64,000 bases of DNA from Pythium myriotylum (taxonomy: Eukaryota; Oomycota; Peronosporomycetes; Pythiales; Pythiaceae): NCBI GenBank assembly GCA_023091665.1, contig JALJCQ010000023.1, positions 434,001 through 498,000 on the forward strand, read 5' to 3'. The translations under genes were made by a program, and so were the position numbers. Shown here in pieces: positions 57,362-63,700 of this stretch; positions within the stretch are counted from its first letter, which is position 1; each line of letters opens with the position of its first letter. The notes below the pieces were generated by a model that had not been told where the DNA came from, did no database searches, and was given only the letters and a program-made list of their open reading frames with translations.

Positions 57362-60300
57362 ATGAGCGAGCGAGTCCGCATCTCCGCGAGGTACACGGCC
57401 CAGGCTGGCGCGTCCCCGCGGCACAATCGCGCGAGTCCTCGTGGCGAGGCCGGCAACGGCTCAGCTGCAGGTGCTGCGGCGGCGGTGGGCGAACCGGGAC
57501 TGGTCAGAAGTATATCTGGGGGCGTGGGATCTTCAGTCGCTGCCGCTGCTGCCGCCTCGCGCCCGCGTTCAGCCACTCGGAGCGTCAGCGCCTCCCATGT
57601 GTCCAGCGCCCCCAACCCGCGTGCCTCATCGAAGATCCTAGGTGCCGCAAAGAACTCGGCAGGAGGCAGCGACGCCTCCCATGACGTTGAAGTCTCTCGA
57701 ATGGCAATGGATTCCTCGGTAGCACCCAAGAACAGCAAACTGTACACACTGTTCACGCAGGAAGACCTTGAACAGCAGGGAGTGAGATCGACCCCTTCAC
57801 CGGCTCCTACTTCTTCATCCTCATCAGCAACAGAGATCGATTCTGAGCCTGTAAACCCTTTGTCATCGTCGGGCTTCTTCTCGGCATCAAGATATTGTAG
57901 GTGTTGCTCGTTAGCGAGTGTATGCTTGGACAATGTTCTGACCGCGTCCCACTTACCGTCAATGCAGCCGCGATGTTGGACACGAGCCCACCGTTACCTC
58001 CAGACAGTATGATCTCTGCTGAAGAAGTGATCCGAGAAAGTATGGCCAGCTCACGTGGGACATCGATACATTCTGAAAGGGATGATCTAGCCTCGTCGCG
58101 TTTTTCCGACCTGTTGACGTTCTCGTTCTCGAGTCGAAGTACATTTCGGCGAAGCACGATTTCAGAGCAGATGTTACGCGAGTCCGAGATGTTTGAGCCC
58201 GAGCGCGAGTTATCGATCTCCGAGATTTCGGAGGTACTGAGTGCGAGCACCTCGGCCCATGTGAAGCCGATGCCGATGACTAGTATTAAAGAAGAAGAAC
58301 AAGACATCAAGATGGAAGCTGCGCGATCTCGATGGGCACAGCACGTGAAGCTGCGTGCTAGAAACTTTCTGTTTTCGGGAATGAGCGGTGCAAAGGCTTC
58401 TGTCACACCAGCTCAGCAAGCTCAGCATCTGCCCGGTGCCGCGTTTGTTTCTTCGGCGACTCATGAATGGGCAATCAAACAGAAGGCTATCTTGTCTCAG
58501 CAGCACCAAGCTGAGGCGCTCCCGATTCCTGGAAACAGCAGCGTTCTTGGTACCGCTCCAGGCGCGGCAAAGCTGCAAAAGTGGAACCGATGGATGCAGG
58601 ACTACTTCAACGTCCAAGCCAATGCTAGTGATCGCGACCCATCGGGACTAATGTCGCTTGAAGAAGTAGTAAGCAACCCACGAATGATGCGCTATTATGC
58701 GGCGTGGCTTCAAGACGCGTCCGATCAAAGCAAGTTATTCTTCCTGTGCTCCTTTGAGGAGTATCGGCAGTTCTGGTGCACTCTCAGACGCAACTACCAA
58801 GGCACCAGCAATGGATCTCGTCATGCGGTTAATGCAACCGCAATGTTCACAAAAGATGACATCCTCATGCTTCGAACGTACGGTGTGAAGATTGCAACGA
58901 AGTATTTAGCAAAAGGCGCGCAGTTTCACATAGGCACTGACCTAGTCGACAGTGAGTTGCTGCATCGCATCAAACGTGACATTGCAACGGGAGGAGAGGA
59001 TGCTCTCAGGACGTTTGACTTTTTGGTGACTCGAGTAAAGCGAGACCTTATGGTGCGATTTCCTGATTTCCGAAAGACGGAGCTCTACTTTGAGATGCAG
59101 AAGTCTGTCGAACGTGAAGTGATCAACTTGGAAGATATCCTGATGAACCACCGATTTGCAAATTTCTTCTGGGTCTTCCTCTTCCCACACAATTACCACC
59201 GCGAAATCGCGTTCTGGTTAGACGTCGAATACGAGTTTAAGCCGGCATATCGGGCGTACACTGCAATTCTAAAGACGCAAGGTCGACGAAAAGAAACAAA
59301 AGACCTCGCGTCGAGACAGTGCAAGAGGCTTATACGATATATTTGCGAGAAATACTACCCCGGCGACGAAGACATGCAGAAGCTCGAGAAGTCGGTTTCT
59401 GGATCTTTCGCCCGAATGCAACGGGAACAAGACGCCATATTGGCAAAGTTCAATCTGATTCACGTGGAGCTGTACCATCGGTTCCTCATGAGTCGCGCAT
59501 ACACTGAGTTCGCACTGTATCCTTCAAGTCCGGAGGAAGAGGATTCGATGGATGATCTGCAACGTTTGTCAGGGCTCTTGCTCAGCTACGGCCTTCGTGT
59601 CCACCATTGGCCGGAAGAGGCGTCTCGCGAAGCTTTGCGGAAGCGTTCCCTCGAGGTGTTTGAAACGACTAGAGGGTTTGAAGCAATATGTGGCGTACTT
59701 TCCTTTGATGCTGTCTGTAACGCCGATCAAGCTGCAGCTGGAACTGCCGCCCTGCGAGTTGTCCAACTCCCACTCGCTCACGAACCAGCCCCAACAGGTT
59801 TCGACCGCTCCATCGAGAGTTTTATATTGCCGTGGTGCTCAGATCTCGAGAATGTCGTGGTTCATGCGTCGACGTGTCCACCTCCTGTGGCGTTTAACTT
59901 CAAAATGGGCGACAGCTCAGCGTCAAATGAGTTGTATGCAGCTTGTGTGGTCATGTACAAACCAGCTCCTGCTCTATCACCCTTATTTCTCGACAAGGTG
60001 CGACTTGAAAGTCAGGGTGGGCTCGGACTCCGATGGGTACCGTACGGAATGTGTATTTTGTCGAAGTTTGCATTAGTAGACTTGCTTCGGGAGCGACTAG
60101 CAGAAGGCTATGAGTTCCTTATTGAGCTCGAGTCGATCGCACGACAAAAAGCAACCGGGAAGCAGTCGTCGACGGGAGTAGAGGCGTTCCATCTTGACAA
60201 GAAGGTGGTGTCCAAAATCTCGCGCTCGGTCTCATTCGAACCACTCATGACTTCGATCGCGTTAACGCCATCACCTGAAGCAACTTCAGCAGCGATGCCC

Positions 60301-61071
60301 AGACTTGATCATTCCATTCGCCTACTCTTCGACACACTTGATGTTGTGACCGTGATCCAAGTTTTTGCTGCCGTGTTGCTTGAAAGTCGTGTCCTTTTTG
60401 TCTCATCGCGTTTTTCAGTTTTGATGCGTGTGTGCGAAGCAATGCGAGCAATCATGTTTCCACTGTTATGGCCTCATGTTTACCTCCCAGTGCTGCCTCT
60501 ACGGATGCTCCAGTACCTCGAGTGCCCAACGCCGTTCATCTTTGGCATTTCGAAAGACTCAATGGACGAAGCACTGCGATCTGATCTGATCAGTGAAGAC
60601 GTCCTTGCTGTGGATCTTGACAAGGGATGTATTGTGCGTGGCGAGATACAGTGCAACTTGCCGTCGACTATCCATTACTCACTACGTGAAGGACTGTATG
60701 AATGCCTAAAACCGAACGTCGATCGAAGCGATCATGTGTTCGCGCATCGATTCCCAACCCATCCACACGCATTCCCCGATTTAGCTGTCCGACGGCTATT
60801 CTCTCAAACGGTGCATAAGCTCATTGGTGAGTTTGGTTACCACCGATACGTATGGACAGATGAGTTTTCAGGAAAGAAAACCACTTTTTTTGATGAGGCA
60901 AGCTACCTGGCGGCATCAGCACCGGATGCTCGGGAGTTTCGAACACTGTTTGCTGCAACACAAGCATTCAGTGAGTATATCGTCTCTTTCAACGGGTTTG
61001 AGGAGGTGTCATCAGCATCTCCTCAGCCAAATGATAGAGAAAAAAGAGGAGATTTCGAGAAAATTCTATGA
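57362..61071 (+). CDS. Tandem RGS plus DENN domain protein
   Basis: Two exons (57362-57917 and 57968-61071, a 50-nt intron whose donor choice is dictated by phase) give 1,219 residues. The first 400 residues are Ser/Ala-rich and disordered. RGS domain 1 lies near residues 414-560 (SLEEVVSNPRMMRYYAAWLQ...FLCSFEEYRQFW) and RGS domain 2 near 572-700 (NLEDILMNHRFANFFWVFLF...DVEYEF). A tripartite DENN module follows: a u-DENN start near residue 722 and a c-DENN with LFDTLDVVTVIQVFAAVLLE, SRVLFVSS and the d-DENN tail. RGS domains act as GTPase-activating proteins for G-alpha; DENN modules are Rab exchange factors. The fusion would link G-protein and Rab signalling. Its stop is 12 bp from the convergent HAD-CofD gene. 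Confidence 0.85.
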
Positions 61072-61083
61072 GTAAAGCGTGAC

Positions 61084-63464
61084 TCAAGGACGGCGTGATT
61101 TCCAAAATGTAGAAGCGATGACTATTGTGAGCAAAACCATGCTCAGAGCAGCGGTCCGGCCTCTTGTCTTCGATACGTCTTCGACATCGACTGAAGGTTC
61201 ACTCACACTCTCCAAACTATCTGTGCGGTGGTTTTTTAGTGAAAAAGACCGCTTCTTGAGAAGAGATTTAGACTTGCTTGTCATCGAGGACGGATTTTTT
61301 TCAATTCGTTCGTGACTTTGCCGACTCTCCTGGGTGATTGATGGCCGGTGAAGAAAGTGACCACCTTGCATCATTTTGTCTCGCATTCGCTCGATCTCTT
61401 GCTCGATGATACGATACAGCATCCCAGCAACTGTCTTTCCGCAGTGCTTGATCATCGTCATTTTGTTCCACTCTTGCTTTAGCACGCTTTCATCCAAGTC
61501 CTCGAACGTCTTTCCTTGAAGTATAACTGGCTGTGAGTTCTGCAGCATTTCATCAGTCGGGAGTAAGAGTGTCTCGCCTCTCGACATGTAGTGCGCCATG
61601 ACATCTGGGGAAGGAGTTGTGTTGTTTGCAATAACATAATCGATGGAGTTGCCGCCCAGGTATTTGTTCAAGGTTTCGAGAGTATCTGCCAGCGTCATTC
61701 CATCAGTTTGTCCGGTCTGTGTGGCAACGTTGCTGATGTAGACAGTTGCCCCAGCACTTCGACTAATGGCATCTCGAATACCAGGCACCAATAATGTAGA
61801 AATGATTGAAGTATAGAAGCCACCGGGACTGATGACAATGATGTCAGCATTCTCAATAGCTCGTACCGCTGGGAGAAATGCTTCCACGTTATCTTTTTCA
61901 AGGAAAACGCGCTTGATAGGCGCCTTTCTCCGCTGATTGCCGTCTTCACCAATAGTAATCGGACTGCGAACGTTTACTTCGGAGACAACGGTGGATCCAT
62001 CTTCAAGCTCGGCACACAGCTCAGTACTGTCGAGTGTCGCGGGAAGAACATTTCCGTGAATGTTGAGAATGTCGGAGATCGACGTGATCGCCTTGTCGAA
62101 CCCCCCCTGGATATCTGTCAGCGCAGCAAGGAGCAAATTGCCGAGACTACAACCTTCCATGAAATTCTCCTTGAAGCGGTAGTTCATGAGCTTGTTCATA
62201 ACCTCATCTACCACAAGGCTTTAGCTTTGCAGTGAACGAATTGACAAAAGAGAGGCCTTACCTGAGTCAGAGAGCGCCACCAAGCAATTACGAATATCCC
62301 CTGGAGGAAGAATACCCAAGTATTTCCGTAGCGCCCCCGAGTGTCGACCAGAATCAAAAACTGTCACAATCGCGGTGAGGTCTGCAGGGTAGTGACGTAG
62401 CTCCTTCAGCAGCACTGCCAATCCTGTGCCCCCTCCGAGCGCGACGATCTTCGGTTTGATCATTTGTTGATCAGCCAGCCTTGCAACTGCAATGAGTTGA
62501 TCGATTGAGCTAATCTGCATGAGAGTGAGTGTTAGCCGTTACTGGTACTACAAGGTCTTAGCACGTGGCATGCCCACTACCTGGAAGTCCGGCTGCTCCA
62601 TTTCTTCTATCGGCATAACGGTCGAATACTTCCCGTGCAGCTACCACCACATAGACGAAAAATACACTGTGAGTCATTGCTGTTCACTTCTCAGTTTCGA
62701 TTACTCACCATTCGCACAGTTACAAGCCCAACTTTGTTCGCGGCTTTGATCTCGTAAAAGACTTTTCTGCCAACGAACAACATCGAAGAAGGCTGCAACA
62801 TTAGCCGGCGTCCCATTTCTTTCATGGCTTGAGCAAGTTGAACGACACTCGGGTTGCTCGGGACAAATACGATCTCGGAGAAGAAATCCTGAAGACCAAG
62901 AGTGCGCAAGCGCTCAAGCTGCACGTCGTCCTTGCCCACACACACGAGTCCAAGCCTGTACCCGTACACATCTCGCAGTTTCTGCAGTGTTTCTCGAGCC
63001 TTGGCGAACGGCTCGATCGTGCGGGCCTCGGCGATTTGACTCTCATAGTAGGCCTTGATCACCCGTTGCGCAGCCTCAAAGCTCAGTTTCTCTTGCGCGA
63101 TCAAGCTGTCGACGAATCGAGGAAATCTTTTCCGGTACCCGAACGCATGGCGAAACGCCTGCAGAGCCTCGTAGGCTGCCACCGTGTTCGGGAATGCGCG
63201 TTCTCTGATGAGCTGCTGGATTGCACGGTCGATCGCAAAGTGGGCCAGCATGTTGGTGTGGTCGTAGAGCACATCTTCGAGGATCATGACGACCGCGTCA
63301 ATCCGTCGGGGATCTTCGTCCACGCGCTCACCACTGGGGAGCCGACAGCGACGGGCGCGCGACCCGCTGCCCGCGGCTGCAGACGAAAGCGACCCGGCGG
63401 GCGTCGGCGAGGCGTCGGCGCTGCGTCGCCCCACCGTCGGGGCCTTCTTGGTGCTCGTATCCAT
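61084..63464 (-). CDS. Pseudo-HAD domain fused to a CofD/YvcK-like domain, with C-terminal membrane anchor
   Basis: Four exons (63464-62709, 62640-62581, 62514-62262, 62207-61084; introns 68, 66 and 54 nt) with exact phases give 730 residues. The HAD-like part (about residues 57-292) has the usual fold order but degenerate active-site motifs: LEDVLYDHTN replaces the DxD nucleophile region and GRKVFYE replaces the GDxxxxD motif. The CofD/YvcK part starts near residue 295 (PKIVALGGGTGLAVLL) and has LPPGDIRNCLVALSDS, GCSLGNLLLAALTDI, GNVLPATLDS and ISPGGFYTSIISTLLVPGI. A hydrophobic anchor ends the protein (ALSMVLLTIVIAS). CofD is a phosphotransferase family; YvcK is its bacterial metabolic relative. 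The substrate here is unknown. Confidence 0.83.
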
Positions 63465-63700
63465 GGTCGTGCTGACGATGAGAAGGAGCCAAAAGCTGTC
63501 AACACACGTGACCAAAGGTGTTCCGTCAAACCGGTTCCCACCGGTTTCTCTGAGCAACCGGTGGAAAGACCGACAAGAAGAGCAACTTGCTCTTCTTGGG
63601 CTCAAACCGGTTCAATACCGGTATCTCTGCGTTCTTTGCGTCCGAGGGCCTTGAGAAAGTGAAGTCGGGAAGGACGAGCGAGGTTGAAGAGAGAAGCCTC
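63465..63700. promoter_or_regulatory. Divergent promoter region with ACCGGT cluster and a 25-bp palindrome
   Basis: Between the HAD-CofD and Rab starts lie five ACCGGT palindromes (63530, 63540, 63557, 63606, 63617) in 93 bp. A palindrome at 63574-63598 has 12-bp arms CAAGAAGAGCAA/TTGCTCTTCTTG around one C. Both look like regulator sites; no binding factor is known. Confidence 0.5.

Follow-up and report, generated by a model that had tools for sequence, protein, structure and literature searches.

Architecture of the fusion gene and its product

The window analysed here is a 64,000-nucleotide stretch of the oomycete Pythium myriotylum (GenBank assembly GCA_023091665.1, contig JALJCQ010000023.1, positions 434,001 to 498,000 of the forward strand), and all coordinates below are positions within it. 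On its minus strand, at 63464..61084, lies a gene of four exons whose spliced product (2193 nt) encodes 730 amino acids (aa) with no internal stops. Judged by sequence, the protein is related to the HAD-YvcK(GlmR) fusions of prokaryotes and has a predicted tail anchor; its gene is the only CofD gene found in the source genome (58.7-Mb assembly, 55 contigs).

Exon 1 (62709..63464) encodes aa 1-252, comprising the N-terminus, which is disordered in the structure model of the orthologue P0001, and most of a degenerate HAD domain. Intron 1 (62641..62708, 68 nt) separates it from exon 2 (62581..62640), whose 60 nt supply 20 codons (LHGKYSTVMPIEEMEQPDFQ) for the end of the HAD domain and the linker, and intron 2 (62515..62580, 66 nt) follows; both introns are in phase 0. 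Exon 3 (62262..62514) spans the HAD/CofD junction and carries the motifs GGGTG (aa 299-303), DSGRHSG (326-332), and PPGDIRN (342-348). Beyond intron 3 (62208..62261, 54 nt, phase 1), exon 4 (61084..62207) encodes the remaining YvcK/CofD domain, the tail, a hydrophobic stretch (aa 708-724), and a basic end, KSRRP. All of these features are on the minus strand, and every intron is bounded by GT..AG. Several Pythium-type and Phytophthora proteins share, in N-termini that are disordered apart from it, a short motif encoded in exon 1, RLPSG.R(V) (63321-63344).

In the raw sequence the fusion product appears as separate open frames, two of which the first-pass annotation had proposed to join by three in-phase introns into a protein of 730 residues. 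The intron boundaries, the uninterrupted reading frame, and full-length orthologues bear this out. Since orthologues in several oomycete genera carry the 20-codon exon, sequence comparison makes it near certain that the HAD-YvcK fusion is one gene rather than two, and the identity of the protein is equally firm. Most orthologues are annotated as one protein, and the exon 2 peptide can be aligned to prokaryotic homologues, in which both domains and the stretch equivalent to exon 2 lie in a single uninterrupted frame. A gene-model artefact, with two genes or a decaying pseudogene at the locus, would fit the separate open frames and the splitting or skipping of parts in some database models, but orthologues that are full length across several oomycete genera, prokaryotic homologues encoded in single frames, and three introns that are all GT..AG and in phase leave this explanation a negligible probability.

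Exon 2 had also been expected to escape gene finders. This holds in part: of 28 oomycete models covering both of its flanks, 6 skip it (P0018, P0029, P0032, P0033, P0036, and P0037) and the others keep it; for P. infestans, model P0006 has the exon and model P0018 lacks it. Its absence may reflect either gene-finder error or real exon skipping. Because the exon is flanked by phase-0 introns, its removal would preserve the frame, and skipping of the HAD tail might be regulated.

Pfam places a HAD domain (PF00702) at aa 63-245 (5.9e-8; 33.8 bits against a cut-off of 26.4) and a CofD domain at aa 295-570 (1e-89); Pfam and NCBIfam extents combined give approximately 55-279 for HAD and 295-585 for YvcK/CofD. 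The score for TIGR01826 (YvcK/GlmR) is above its cut-off (296.7 versus 196 bits), and those for TIGR01819, the CofD 2-phospho-L-lactate transferase model (22.9 versus 257.45 bits), and TIGR02253 (CTE7; 79.7 versus 169.75 bits) are below theirs. Among the NCBIfam models and solved sequences, the TIGR02253 HAD-IA hydrolases, with PH1655 (2hoq), are nevertheless the nearest HAD subfamily. Both folds are retained in the sequence and in the predicted structure of the nearest orthologue. Compared with GlmR/YvcK proteins (TIGR01826; solved structures 2hzb, 2o2z, 2ppv), the window protein differs by its fusion to a HAD domain and by its predicted C-terminal anchor.

The closest orthologue among the matches listed is P0001 from Pythium oligandrum (74% identity over 99%). 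The best 120 of 1768 matches include named orthologues from Pythium insidiosum, Globisporangium, Lagenidium, Phytophthora, Nothophytophthora, Peronospora, Peronosclerospora, Achlya, and Aphanomyces, and no named entry from Albugo or Saprolegnia. The oomycete set comprised 37 rows (P0001-P0037), seven of them (P0021, P0023, P0025-P0028, and P0030) assigned to oomycetes by identity (63-77%), and with the window protein it totals 38 sequences. Several orthologues bear the name "gluconeogenesis factor" in UniRef/NCBI. In a Phytophthora ramorum database model (P0032), the fusion gene is joined to helicase domains, and P0008, the orthologue from P. cinnamomi, bears the name "atp-dependent rna helicase"; both are probable annotation errors.

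The C-terminal membrane anchor proposed in the first-pass annotation is upheld as a prediction. A single hydrophobic segment of 17 residues lies at the extreme C-terminus (aa 708-724; mean hydropathy, 2.07), followed by the short basic end, and the model of P0001 has a helix at the matching position. Of the 38 oomycete sequences, 31 are predicted to have a hydrophobic stretch of this kind; its absence from the other seven (P0003, P0004, P0005, P0018, P0032, P0033, and P0036) may reflect shorter or divergent gene models.

Catalytic motifs of the HAD domain

Catalytic residues were compared in 16 oomycete proteins, chosen from the 38 because their HAD domain is complete and they are not redundant (in some, other ends are missing), with the solved PH1655 (2hoq) and 76 prokaryotic fusions as references. 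P0024 was left out, no motif I being recognisable in its model. The prokaryotic fusions were drawn from P0038-P0119 after the eukaryote-like P0068, P0081, and P0109 and the incomplete P0093, P0095, and P0110 had been set aside. Residues are assigned to individual HAD motifs following the usual motif scheme of the superfamily.

None of the 16 oomycete proteins has the nucleophile Asp, its place being occupied by Ile (13), Thr (2), or Leu (1); all 16 also lack the motif IV Asp (Arg in 14, Lys in 2). In the window protein, the nucleophile is changed to Ile (MILEDVLYD), the motif II Thr to Cys, and the motif IV GD to GR, and no Lys or Arg aligns at motif III; compared with the TIGR02253 hydrolases and PH1655, the domain is thus damaged in all four catalytic motifs. 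The Asp two residues past the nucleophile is retained in 13 of the 16 proteins and is Glu in 3; in the window protein it has changed to Glu. At positions conserved in at least 95% of the 76 prokaryotic fusions, the CofD part keeps 67 of 78 residues versus 19 of 33 for the HAD part.

On this sequence evidence, the conclusion that the oomycete HAD domain is catalytically degenerate holds, as the first-pass annotation had argued from the loss of its motifs. That annotation had motif IV losing both of its Asp residues, of which only the first is a loss (GD to GR); the second acid is Glu in all 16 oomycete proteins and already in 97% of the 76 prokaryotic fusions. Catalysis by another route, for example with E63 or D64 as nucleophile, might be entertained because position 63 is Asp or Glu and position 64 is Asp in every one of the 16 proteins. 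However, the nucleophile, the motif II Thr, and the motif IV Asp are all gone together and constraint on the HAD part is relaxed, and we consider such activity highly improbable.

Prokaryotic fusions and the eukaryotic clade

Planctomycetota, DPANN archaea, and Latescibacterota possess co-linear HAD-YvcK fusions in which the HAD domain is intact. Fusion loci, numbering at least those labelled L002-L018, were found in Scalindua, Brocadia, Loosdrechtia, other planctomycetes, two Diapherotrites, a Woesearchaeon, and Latescibacterota. Within the phylum of Scalindua (Planctomycetota), full-length fusions are present in 24 of the 294 genomes sampled, one of the 24 having an internal stop, and there is one further match covering residues 2-424. 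The prokaryotic fusions, including those of Scalindua, Brocadia, Diapherotrites, Woesearchaeota, Aenigmarchaeota, and Latescibacterota, share the domain order and the exon 2 linker of the window protein, mostly with 35-41% identity over 76-79% of its length among the matches listed. In contrast to the window protein, with its MILEDVLYD, 156 of 157 match FDLD[DG]TL[YF]D at motif I, and none of the 157 has a C-terminal membrane stretch, which rules out membrane anchoring as a hallmark of HAD-YvcK fusions. Three loci have a further HAD of this kind, unfused, directly downstream of the fusion gene (L002, 7727-8413; L015, 7787-8485; L014, 7921-8598).

Membrane segments are also found among stand-alone YvcK proteins, at the N-terminus in 78 of the 88 listed (P0131-P0217 and P0120), a list biased to long proteins since candidates were taken only at 0.55-1.75 times the query length. 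Because stand-alone proteins carry their segments at the N-terminus, membrane tethering of YvcK may have arisen more than once.

In the full-length tree, the eukaryotic and eukaryote-like fusions included form one clade (100/100), inside which the oomycetes are nested (100/100). The other members are two lineages of metagenomic fusions (P0068, P0081, and P0109; P0219, P0121, and P0218) that are probably eukaryotic, as called from tree position and low-complexity inserts. P0068, P0081, and P0109 have an intact motif I, unlike the oomycetes. P0219 keeps GD in motif IV and, as in oomycetes, ends with a hydrophobic stretch, which P0068, P0081, P0109, P0121, and P0218 lack. P0121 has lost the nucleophile (FTLDD) and has VGNK; the models of P0219 and P0218 lack motif I. 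Homologues with an intact HAD had been named in the first-pass annotation as evidence that would speak against inactivity. Such homologues exist in prokaryotes, but the inactivity of the oomycete domain stands, since the loss lies inside the eukaryotic clade.

HAD catalysis was probably lost at least twice among eukaryotic fusions. GD is kept in motif IV of P0219, whereas P0121 carries FTLDD and VGNK, which makes a separate loss of the nucleophile in their lineage probable. A single loss is weakly favoured by a HAD-only tree that joins P0121 to the oomycetes (95/72), but the CofD tree and the full-length trees place P0121 elsewhere, and a constraint grouping the oomycetes with P0121 and P0218, a group chosen after the trees were seen, was rejected (approximately unbiased test, p 0.0002). 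The branching order among the three eukaryotic lineages is less than firmly resolved, with support of 94/61 in one full-length tree and 89/90 in another. The eukaryotic fusions occupy one side of a branch opposite all prokaryotic fusions, the drawn root being the midpoint, and the midpoint-rooted full-length tree picks out no donor for a transfer.

The first-pass annotation knew of no account of this arrangement. In fact, the HAD-CofD order is present in many prokaryotic database entries, but a search of the open-licence literature, including terms for pseudo-HAD proteins, found no paper on the HAD-YvcK/CofD fusion or on the oomycete protein. In an oomycete phosphatome paper (PMC10925823), a term search of the text available for it did not find the words CofD or gluconeogenesis. 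By sequence, then, what is already known is the HAD-YvcK order, deposited in databases with an intact HAD, and what is new is the dead HAD, the additional changes in the GlmR site, the predicted tail anchor, and the spread across the oomycete genera seen.

Possible functions and neighbouring features

As a single reading, drawn from homology, we tentatively prefer, while granting it less than an even chance, a membrane-tethered and mainly non-catalytic GlmR-like sensor of UDP-N-acetylglucosamine (UDP-GlcNAc) or hexosamine phosphate, since the established catalytic residues have not been retained. The CofD domain would bind, in a manner resembling GlmR, a UDP-sugar or hexosamine phosphate and would report the sugar pool to partner proteins. 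The first candidate partner would be GFAT, the GlmS homologue; a single full-length gene of the GFAT/GlmS type is present in the source genome (530 bits; cut-off, 418). The dead HAD might act as another module, for ligand binding or for docking of partners, and the tail may hold the assembly on an organelle membrane, perhaps the mitochondrial outer membrane or the endoplasmic reticulum. The sensing or binding role suggested in the first-pass annotation is thus kept as the best reading, as something we infer rather than observe.

Substitutions in the GlmR site, studies of bacterial GlmR, and gene context all supply points that weigh against this sensor. Residue numbers of GlmR were transferred through the 2hzb alignment, and the matching positions given here are inferred from it. 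According to passages of two papers, GlmR requires the consecutive catalytic Asp pair D38/D39 in B. subtilis (PMC13046274), and the Listeria protein has the pair D40/D41 together with N198 of the uridyltransferase site (PMC10128056). The window protein keeps the first Asp of the pair (D326) and has Ser327 in place of D39. Among oomycetes the second Asp is absent from all 36 rows with the position; it is replaced in the prokaryotic fusions too (0 of 87) and is present in 79 of 88 stand-alone proteins. The N198 position is Thr494 in the window protein, Thr in 34 and Pro in 3 of 37 oomycete rows (Asn in none), and Asn in 84 of 87 prokaryotic fusions, and the R301 position is Lys610 in the window protein, Lys in all 35 oomycete rows with a letter, and Arg in 83 of 87 prokaryotic fusions. 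At the Y265 position, which with R301 belongs to the UDP-GlcNAc site, the window protein has Tyr563; Tyr is present in 25 of 37 oomycete rows and the remaining 12 are gapped there, a shorter loop being common among them. This Tyr is also reported, in a portion of PMC10128056, to be absent from Listeria GlmR.

The main rival, which we rate as possible but doubtful, is that the CofD half is still an enzyme, a nucleotidyl- or phosphotransferase acting through GGGTG, D326, and PPGDIRN, with the HAD part reduced to a structural or dimerising role. Wherever an oomycete row has letters at the site, it keeps GGGTG (35 of 37 rows), the first Asp (36), and PPGD[IV]RN (36), and the better conservation of the CofD part noted above points the same way. 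GlmR uridyltransferase activity is documented in the part of PMC10128056 that deals with it, and an excerpt of PMC13046274 indicates that this activity is needed in B. subtilis. The missing second Asp and the substituted N198, however, argue against catalysis in the oomycete protein. In B. subtilis, as far as sections of PMC13046274 describe, catalytically inert GlmR fails to complement a glmR deletion and R301A, which is unable to bind UDP-GlcNAc, complements at low expression; thus, catalysis outweighs ligand sensing in that species. Regulation by GlmR is itself reported there, GlmS being stimulated at low UDP-GlcNAc and not at high (PMC7525490, in part). For Listeria, the relevant passage of PMC10128056 reports that no GlmR-GlmS interaction was detected.

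Gene context gives the hexosamine role weak support. In a first set, hexosamine neighbours were found in 5 of 17 fusion loci, three of the five being similar loci. The fusion adjoins, for example, glmU and glmM in L002, a GlmU-like gene in L009, and glmS in L005. The second set, 20 of the 24 full-length planctomycete loci, overlaps the first in several genomes and has some short flanks; it had such neighbours in 1 of 20 loci, from the same genome as L002, versus 0 of 20 control stretches taken from 7 of the genomes. G119, G135, G150, and G165 were left out, three of them lying near a contig start. For this second set the queries were a single protein each of GlmU, GlmM, and GlmS. Hexosamine context is therefore rejected as a general feature of the fusions. 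A further alternative, which we think unlikely, is that the protein binds another nucleotide-sugar or phospho-ligand and serves another pathway at the membrane, such as mitochondrial carbon control, with no hexosamine link. The weak context, the altered Asp pair in the fusions counted, and the change of R301 to Lys in oomycetes would suit this, but the overall fold and most pocket motifs are still GlmR-like, and glmS, glmM, or glmU adjoins some prokaryotic fusions.

Extending the sensor proposal to its history, a prokaryotic HAD-GlmR could have entered an early relative of oomycetes and become tail-anchored to an organelle membrane, with the HAD then switched off at least twice independently and the GlmR half altered in oomycetes at its catalytic and ligand residues, to give a double pseudoenzyme that senses UDP-sugar at a membrane and controls hexosamine flux. 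We consider this whole sequence of events speculative and rather improbable, and we know of no eukaryotic counterpart of such a sensor. In bacteria, GlmR stands at a branch point of carbon metabolism and cell-wall precursors. If the proposal is true, amino-sugar metabolism in a large eukaryotic group would have a control point that has gone unrecognised: an anchored GlmR relative, its phosphatase half disabled, conserved across many oomycete genera. The intact prokaryotic fusions and the intact and inactivated eukaryotic ones, with two probable losses, offer a natural series for the change from enzyme to pseudoenzyme.

Downstream of the fusion gene, an open frame on the plus strand (57901-61071) encodes DENN and RGS domains. 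With just 12 bp between its stop and that of the fusion gene on the opposite strand, the two transcripts probably overlap at their 3' ends. Antisense to exon 1, a frame of 285 codons (62805-63662, plus strand) is open, perhaps as a by-product of codon bias. On the other side, AACCGGT has 14 matches in the whole window when both strands are counted (expected, 5.6), and 6 of these fall within 84 bp at 63529-63612, where they represent four distinct sites, two of them palindromes. We take AACCGGTT to be a Grainyhead/CP2-type site. The cluster sits between the start of the fusion gene (63464) and that of the next gene (63701), which appears Rab-like by eye and has a short first exon without a Pfam match.
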